Shown here piece by piece: positions 2,976 to 6,665 of a stretch of DNA of 41,588 nucleotides. The position numbers and the translations under genes are program-made. The stretch comes from Alphaproteobacteria bacterium (lineage in GTDB: Bacteria; Pseudomonadota; Alphaproteobacteria; SHVP01), in contig JAPYRS010000007.1 of the NCBI GenBank assembly GCA_029936875.1, forward strand, positions 1 to 41,588. The letters run 5' to 3'. Below the pieces are notes generated by a model. The model was not told the origin of the DNA and made no database searches. It saw only the letters and a list, made by a program, of their open reading frames with translations. Numbering within the stretch: position 1 is the first letter of the stretch; each line of letters opens with the position of its first letter.

Positions 2976-4469
2976 TTACTTCATCACCGGCATGACGTAT
3001 TCGGCACCCTTGCGAATGCCGTCGGGCCAGCGCGACGTGACGGTTTTCATCTTGGTGAAAAACTGTACGCCTTCGGGGCCGTGCATGTGATGGCCGCCGA
3101 ACAGCGAACGCTTCCAACCGCCAAACGAATGAAACGCCATCGGCACCGGGATCGGCACGTTGACGCCGATCATGCCGGCAGTGGCGCGCGTTGAAAATTC
3201 ACGCGCCGCATCGCCGTCGCGGGTGAAGATCGCCGCACCGTTTCCATATTCGTGATCGTTGACGAGTTTGAGCGCGCTATCAAAATCGTCCTCGCGAACG
3301 ACCGATAACACCGGCCCGAATATTTCTTCTTTATAAATGCGCATGTCGGGCGTGACGTTATCGAACAGGTTGCCGCCGAGGTAATAACCGCCCTCGTACC
3401 CCTGCAGTGAAAGTCCGCGTCCATCGACGAGAAGTTTGGCCCCCTCTTCGACACCGAGATCGATGTAACCTTTGACGCGATCAAAATGCGCCTTGGTGAC
3501 CAGCGGCCCCATCTCTGATTCGGGATCGTTGCCGGGACCAACTTTAAGGGCGGCAACACGCGGGGTGAGACGTTCAACAAGTTTGTCGGCAGCGTCGCCG
3601 ACTGCGACCGCAACCGAGACCGCCATGCAGCGTTCGCCGGCCGACCCGAAGGCCGCCCCCATCAGCGCGTCAGCCGCTTGATCAAGGTCGGCGTCCGGCA
3701 TGACGATCATGTGGTTTTTTGCCCCGCCCAATGCCTGCACGCGTTTGCCGTGGGCGGCACCGGTCGTATAGACGTGTTCGGCAACCGCAGTGGAGCCAAC
3801 GAAACTGATCGCCGAAATGCGCGGATCGGTGAGCAACGCGTTGACGGCTTCGGCGTCACCGTTGATGACGTTAAAGACGCCGTCCGGCAGCCCCGCCTCG
3901 GTCATAAGTTCGGCCATGCGGATGCCGCACGACGGATCTTTTTCCGACGGCTTCAGGATGAAGCAATTGCCCGCCGCGATCGCCACCGGGAACATCCACA
4001 TCGGCACCATCGCCGGAAAGTTAAACGGGGTAACGCCCGCGCAGATGCCCAAGGGTTGGCGCAGCGACCATGAATCAACGCCGGTGCCAACCGAATCCGA
4101 ATACTCGCCCTTGAGCAGATGCGGAATGCCGCAAGCAAATTCGACAACTTCAAGCCCGCGGGCGACGGACCCTTGCGCATCAGAGAAAGTCTTGCCGTGT
4201 TCCGCGGTTACCAGCCGCGCGAGATCATCGCCGTGTTTCTCGACCAGTTCCTTGAATTTGAACATGACGCGGGCACGGCGGACCGGCGGCGTCGCCGCCC
4301 ATTCTTCGAACGCGGTTTCAGCCGAAACGATCACCTGATCAATTTCGGCGGCGTTTGCTAAAGCAACATCGGCTGATTTTTCACCCGTCGCCGGGTTGAA
4401 TACGTCACCGAAGCGGCCGCTTTGGCCCTCGACAATTCCACCGTTTATGAAGTGATTAATGGTTGGCAT
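2976..4469 (-). CDS. mmsA: CoA-acylating methylmalonate-semialdehyde dehydrogenase
   Basis: Full-length aldehyde dehydrogenase; GICAGVTPFNFPAMVPMWMFPVAIAAGNCFILKPSEKDPS and GSAGERCMAVSVAVAVG are typical of MmsA. Start chosen at MPTINHFINGG (ORF track starts 7 codons upstream). Confidence 0.93.
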   Translation of the reverse strand: MPTINHFINGGIVEGQSGRFGDVFNPATGEKSADVALANAAEIDQVIVSAETAFEEWAATPPVRRARVMFKFKELVEKHGDDLARLVTAEHGKTFSDAQGSVARGLEVVEFACGIPHLLKGEYSDSVGTGVDSWSLRQPLGICAGVTPFNFPAMVPMWMFPVAIAAGNCFILKPSEKDPSCGIRMAELMTEAGLPDGVFNVINGDAEAVNALLTDPRISAISFVGSTAVAEHVYTTGAAHGKRVQALGGAKNHMIVMPDADLDQAADALMGAAFGSAGERCMAVSVAVAVGDAADKLVERLTPRVAALKVGPGNDPESEMGPLVTKAHFDRVKGYIDLGVEEGAKLLVDGRGLSLQGYEGGYYLGGNLFDNVTPDMRIYKEEIFGPVLSVVREDDFDSALKLVNDHEYGNGAAIFTRDGDAAREFSTRATAGMIGVNVPIPVPMAFHSFGGWKRSLFGGHHMHGPEGVQFFTKMKTVTSRWPDGIRKGAEYVMPVMK

Positions 4470-4558
4470 CCGGCCCTCCGCCTCGCTCACGAATTGGCCT
4501 CATGGGTGCCTGAATTTCAGCGCCCTTGCAAGGCCCAGGAGAGGCTGTGAGGTGGTGG

Positions 4559-5524
4559 TCATTCCCAGGGTGCGGGCAAAGTATTGACGGATGTGGCCTT
4601 TTGCCGGGCAGCGAAATCGCCCAAACTTTGGGTCTGGACCCCAAGGTAAAGTGGCTCGGCGCCGTCCCGGTAAATATTCATCTTGGCGTTATACGCAGAA
4701 TGGGCGAGCCCGTGTTTGTTGATCACATTGTATTTGCTGACAAAAAACCGCCCGTCTTCCTGTTTTTCGCCGGTGAAATAACAGCGGATGCCGCTGATAC
4801 GCCCCGAATCAAGATCAGCGCCGGTAAAGTCATCAAGGCGGCGCTACACCGCGCCCATGAATCCGAGTGAATCGAGTGGCTCGCCGCCGGACTCGAGCGG
4901 GCGATAAAATTCCCCAACCAAAATCTGATCCGGCATGGTTTGGTCGACAAGGCGGGCGAGTTCGATGGTCGCATCACCAACGATATATTCGGTGTCGCTC
5001 GGCTGCAGGCCTTTTACCTGGTAATAGGAAAAGTGACTGCCAATGGTCAGGCAGGTCCGAAGGCGCGGAACCATGCGCGGTCCAACGACGCCCCGGCTGA
5101 TTGCGTTGTCGGCAAGCACGAGCATCATCAGGAAGCTGAGTTTGATGTCGTCCTCCGGGCCCTTGCCCCGGTTCCAGATGTAATAGCCGTCGCCCGTTGT
5201 CGAGCGGCCGAGATTGATGTTGAGGCCGGCCTGGTGCATGCACCGGAGCGCGACATTTATCGACACTTCGAGAGAATTTAGCTGCGCGACCTGTTCGACC
5301 TGAGACAGCAAGGAAAAGCCAACGATGTCGAATAGCGCGATGGTCCGGCTGCGGGTCCGGGAAATGGAATATCGAACGGCGAGCCTTTCAATCGCTGCCA
5401 CCGTTACCGCGCCGGCGTCATCGCCAATCGGGGCCGCAAAAGGCACGAATTCGGATTCAATTCCAAGAACCTCGGCGACCGCCGCAAATGCCCGGTTGCC
5501 CATCATCCGGGTGCCGTCGGTCAT
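4559..5524 (-). pseudogene. Class III adenylate/guanylate cyclase-like gene interrupted by one in-frame TAG (4844-4846)
   Basis: ORF 4844..5524 contains IALFDIVGFSLLSQVEQVAQLN and TTGDGYYIWN (cyclase-like metal-binding Asp motifs). The same frame continues after TAG: RRLDDFTGADLDSGRISGIRCYFTGEKQEDGRFFVSKYNVINKHGLAHSAYNAKMNIYRDGAEPLYLGVQTQSLGDFAARQKATSVNTLPAPWE, then TGA at 4559-4561. Confidence 0.65.
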
Positions 5525-5637
5525 GCGGTGATGGGCTTCGGCGTGCTCAAGCAGTGCGTAGGAGGGCGCATGCCTGGAAGGGCTGTGTTACCGCTCAGGC
5601 TTGGAGCCGCGGGTATCGCACAGATGGCGATGTGCTG

Positions 5638-6183
5638 AAGGAAATCGAACACCATCTTCGAAGAGCGTATGAACTCGACCCCAATGATCCCGAATGCCAC
5701 CGGATACTGGCCGCAATCGCGCTCATGAGAAAAAATTTCGACGATGCTATTTCTCATCAGTAGCGCGGGCTTCAACTCAACCCCAATTACGACTTAATCG
5801 TTGTGCAACAAGGCGAACTTCTGACCTGGACCGGCGACCCCGACGGGGCCGTCGAATGGATCGAAAAGGCAATGGCCCTAAATCCGTTTCACCCGGAACG
5901 GTTCTGGAGCCATCTTGGCCGTGCCTTGTTTCTGGGTAGCAATTACGAGCCCGCCATTCGGGCCTTCAAGAAACTCTCCTATCTTGACGCCGGCCAGCAC
6001 GCCTTTGTTGCCGCTTCGAACGCCGGCCTCGATCAGCTCGAATTCGCCGCCAAACATGTGGAGAAAATAAAGAGTCTTGATCGCGATATGACCGCGGAGA
6101 GCTACATTGCTTCGCTGCCCTTTCGAGACAACGCCGACAGCGAACATTTGCGCGACCTGCTGATCAAGGCCGGAATGAGCTGA
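5638..6183 (+). pseudogene. C-terminal TPR fragment of a cyclase/TPR-type protein, N-terminal part absent, with in-frame TAG (5761-5763)
   Basis: Frame reads ...KEIEHHLRRAYELDPNDPECHRILAAIALMRKNFDDAISHQ*RGLQLNPNYDLIVVQQGELLTWTGDPDGAVEWIEKAMALNPFHPERFWSHLGRALFLG...LLIKAGMS. TPR signatures lie on both sides of the TAG in the same frame; the upstream sequence does not look like a cyclase domain. Left boundary approximate. Confidence 0.65.
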
Positions 6184-6589: not shown

Positions 6590-6665
6590 TGGTGCCGCCT
6601 GCAGGACTCGAACCTGCGACCCCCGCATTACGAATGCGATGCTCTACCAGCTGAGCTAAGGCGGC
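6590..6665 (-). tRNA. tRNA-Thr (anticodon CGT), CCA encoded
   Basis: Minus strand GCCGCCT TA GCTC AGCTGGTA GAGC A TCGCA TTCGTAA TGCGG GGGTC GCAGG TTCGAGT CCTGC AGGCGGC ACCA: complete cloverleaf, loop TTCGTAA gives anticodon CGT. Confidence 0.96.

Follow-up and report, generated by a model that had tools for sequence, protein, structure and literature searches.

Two truncated genes upstream of mmsA

The window analysed here is a stretch of 41,588 nucleotides from contig JAPYRS010000007.1, part of the draft genome of an alphaproteobacterium. Three features lie on the minus strand at its left end: a pyruvate carboxylase gene that runs off the end of the contig (2–2560), an intact mmsA gene encoding a CoA-acylating methylmalonate-semialdehyde dehydrogenase (2976–4490), and the remnant of a divergent class III cyclase-like gene (4559–5569). 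These are followed on the plus strand by the remnant of an adenylate cyclase-TPR gene (5563–6183), and then by a tRNA-Thr(CGT) gene on the minus strand (6590–6665). Elsewhere in the window, a run of genes between 26154 and 41048 resembles, by eye, a polysaccharide or O-antigen synthesis region – it includes genes for a UDP-sugar dehydrogenase, an oxidoreductase, an acetyltransferase, aminotransferases, an asparagine synthase-like protein, a glycosyltransferase, a flippase-like protein and a radical SAM protein.

The reading frame of the cyclase-like gene at 4559–5524 has an ATG at 5524–5522, a TAG at 4846–4844 and a TGA at 4561–4559, with 226 codons before the TAG and 94 after it. No further stop or frameshift was found in this frame, just as the original prediction had described it. 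According to that prediction, the codons beyond the TAG look like authentic protein. This is the case: tblastn alignments to relatives cross 4844–4846 uninterrupted, and the closest ortholog (L002/L010, from genome G001 of the same family), which aligns over 336 codons without gaps at 54% identity, is 53% identical both before and after the TAG. The ortholog occupies the same locus, adjoined by mmsA and then pyruvate carboxylase as in the window, and its codon matching the TAG is CAG (Gln).

The TAG column is a variable position. Among 41 aligned relatives it holds Asn in 14, Gln in 13, Ser in seven, and one of Ala, Gly, His and Leu in the others. None of the 41 has a stop or a protein end at this position, and the frame continues in all of them; relatives ending naturally at the MGAV that precedes the TAG are therefore not seen in this set. 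CAG to TAG takes a single transition. The very recent CAG-to-TAG nonsense mutation that was proposed as one of two origins of the stop is supported by the CAG of the syntenic ortholog, by the Gln in 13 of the 41 relatives and by the equally constrained appearance of both flanks.

The stop is not the only lesion. Homology to the family begins abruptly at 5569 (APSYALL), upstream of the ATG at 5524, which is an internal position relative to the family. The conserved N-terminal region of the relatives, which carries an LGxNxVLxW motif and is predicted to form a helix and two strands (residues 86–136 of the L002 frame), is absent from the window gene. The ortholog's N-terminal part, used as a query against the whole genome, hit nothing but this truncated copy. 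Both the TAG and the loss of the N-terminus are thus absent from the intact ortholog at the same locus.

The plus-strand neighbor is truncated as well. One relative of this gene has a frame of 635 residues, and the match in the window starts at its residue 428, past the cyclase domain (recognised by eye), so that ca. 427 upstream residues of the relatives' open frame are missing. Only the C-terminal TPR third is left, without the catalytic domain, and it has an in-frame TAG of its own (5761–5763, plus strand). A genome search for the missing catalytic half found several other adenylate cyclases, the best two of which (on contigs C73 and C168) have no matching junction. The junction of the two truncated genes, which are in head-to-head orientation, lies at 5563–5569: homology starts at 5569 for the minus-strand gene and at 5563 for the plus-strand gene, so the truncation points coincide within about seven bases. 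The 5' truncation, the broken neighbor with its own TAG and the coincidence of the two truncation points were all absent from the original prediction.

Gene order in related genomes

The tRNA-Thr(CGT) gene and mmsA are conserved anchors on either side of the junction. In three genomes of the same family (G002, G005 and G006), the genes hemD, a mitofilin-like gene, hemY, tRNA-Thr(CGT) and mmsA have the same order and orientation as in the window, and within the stretches fetched the synteny extends to hemC in G002 and G005 and to tsaD in G002. Between tRNA-Thr and mmsA there are 12.8–16 kb in these three genomes, as against 2.1 kb in the window. The gene content of the interval (L121, L122 and L124) differs in part among the three, and it is possibly a variable region beside a tRNA gene. 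Two aldehyde-dehydrogenase-like matches in these genomes contain a single internal stop each, a TAG in one (G006:C5:372501-373967) and a TAA in the other (G005:C68:11620-12879).

In relatives, a SEL1-repeat gene precedes either the cyclase-like gene or mmsA, and it was considered as a marker of the lost segment. It was rejected: in this genome a relative of it is found on a different contig (C65), next to fabI/aroC-like genes.

A family with a predicted cyclase fold, not covered by Pfam

No Pfam or NCBIfam model matched the cyclase-like family, and a sequence-profile search against solved structures returned nothing credible. The predicted structure of the intact ortholog has a mean pLDDT of 79, with 279 of its 473 residues at 90 or above and the first 81 disordered. 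This model has a class III cyclase fold. Its Foldseek matches include adenylyl and guanylyl cyclase domains of class III, with a best E-value of 6.7e-9 and target TM-scores of 0.5–0.7 for isolated cyclase domains. The label "cyclase-like", first given on sight of the letters, is therefore sound at the level of the predicted fold, though no catalogued model covers the family. The likeness is to class III nucleotidyl cyclases such as the soluble domain of a bacterial adenylyl cyclase (5o5l) and Mycobacterium Rv1625c. The best E-value above goes with a target TM-score of 0.54, and target TM-scores reach 0.69, for 3et6_B.

Like class III cyclases, the family keeps the Asp of FDIVGFS and of TGDG. 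In the family alignment, read by eye, both metal-site Asp and the Arg are kept and the Asn is not: the GDATIELARL motif of the family seems to lack the transition-state Asn usual in class III cyclases, so the cyclase activity of the family is uncertain. It further differs from class III cyclases in having an extra N-terminal region and a C-terminal DKHG region. Members (L002, L003 and L011–L044), with the conserved N-terminal region and the DKHG motif, were found in Alphaproteobacteria, Halieaceae, Woeseiaceae and one Armatimonadetes record. As a cyclase-like family not yet catalogued, these intact relatives are of modest separate interest.

The TAG corresponds to residue 376 of the L002 frame, which in the ortholog model lies in a predicted helix ahead of the final strands. 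Those strands contain the invariant and near-invariant residues of the DKHG...YN region, which would be missing from a protein that stopped at the TAG.

Selection on the two sides of the stop

Relative to the closest ortholog, pN is well below pS both before and after the TAG. The dN is ca. 0.39 before it and ca. 0.41 after, with dS of ca. 2.4 and ca. 1.7, which is near saturation. The dN/dS comparison that had been suggested as a check thus finds both sides constrained and is not decisive, given the near saturation of dS. As judged from these substitution rates, both parts of the gene were under constraint for most of the time since divergence from the ortholog, and the values would fit recent inactivation and continued function alike. 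At 67 conserved columns, the window gene departs from the family consensus at 11 and the ortholog at five, which may be a slight sign of relaxed selection. In the window, Asn replaces the nearly invariant Asp of DKHG, a change that counts towards a pseudogene.

Probable gene loss at an apparent deletion junction

Very probably, the two genes are pseudogenes at a deletion junction, and the cyclase-like gene is decaying, with a TAG that arose by a recent CAG-to-TAG change. The ancestor would have had a full-length divergent class III nucleotidyl-cyclase-like gene directly upstream of mmsA. A deletion would have run from inside this gene into the adenylate cyclase-TPR gene on the opposite strand, stripping each gene of its 5' end with the start codon, promoter and N-terminal domain, and joining the remnants head to head at about 5563–5569. 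Its scale may have been roughly 10 kb or more, judging from the wider gap in the three family genomes, whose intervals differ in content. The remnants would since have been drifting, each gaining one nonsense codon that is TAG in both by chance, most simply by CAG to TAG in the cyclase-like gene. We infer that the junction goes back to a single deletion, which came before the nonsense changes or freed them to occur, and that no functional product is now made from the remnants.

Two observations count against a pseudogene: the constraint at the codon level on both sides of the TAG, and the presence of only one nonsense change in each remnant. If the genes are pseudogenes, the same two observations require a recent inactivation.

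A mis-joined contig would look just like a deletion junction, and the genome is a metagenome-assembled draft of 223 contigs with an estimated contamination of 2.3%. It is nonetheless improbable that the TAG, the junction or both are errors of assembly or sequencing. Both sides of the junction match the order and orientation of the three family genomes, and the same anchors with a wider gap in those relatives favor a true deletion from the chromosome rather than a chance chimera. A single miscalled base would leave two truncations and two stops unexplained.

The other origin suggested for the stop was read-through giving two C-terminal isoforms of a signalling enzyme, weighed here as read-through at some level that yields a functional cyclase. 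This is the more interesting option, and nothing specific speaks in its favor. In general terms it is helped by the open and constrained frame after the stop, and by the reported wide occurrence of in-frame stops in bacterial genes that are under purifying selection (Belinky et al. 2021, PMC7918605). In the same report such stops persist mainly at the level of polymorphism within populations, in keeping with a recent nonsense change. We regard read-through as very improbable. Programmed read-through would be expected in an otherwise intact gene and at a conserved stop position; this one is missing the conserved N-terminal region and the original start, it lies at a junction beside a gene that is also broken, and none of the 41 relatives shares the stop. 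In the short isoform the final strands would be absent, and with them the invariant positions of DKHG...N. There is hardly more than a trace of probability that the internal ATG at 5524 still serves as a translation start for the truncated gene, with low-level read-through of the TAG yielding a little stand-alone cyclase-like domain, so that the TAG would act as a brake on expression and not as an inactivation.

Reassignment of TAG to a sense codon, to which the internal stops of both adjacent genes being TAG only would lend themselves, is practically ruled out, as TAG is an ordinary stop in this genome: it terminates 33 of 100 long coding ORFs sampled on 241 kb, prfA (RF1) is present with a score above the family cut-off, and none of the 33 tRNAs found in the incomplete assembly has a CUA anticodon.

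Comparison with known systems

Decay of the two genes at a deletion junction, the reading preferred here, amounts to ordinary recent gene loss in a bacterium represented here by a draft genome, and matters little in itself. It does carry a caution, in that a clean single in-frame stop resembles read-through until the 5' end and the neighboring gene have been checked.

Compared with the in-frame stops in constrained genes surveyed in PMC7918605, the likeness is a TAG where the ortholog has CAG, with constraint on both sides; unlike those, the TAG in the window is shared with no relative and the gene has an independent 5' truncation. The closer parallel is with bacterial pseudogenes formed by deletion and nonsense mutation. 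As in these, there is a 5' truncation, a premature stop, a set of intact orthologs and a neighbor cut at the same point. There is no notable difference from them: the decay here is at an early stage, with the frame past the stop still open and recognisable.
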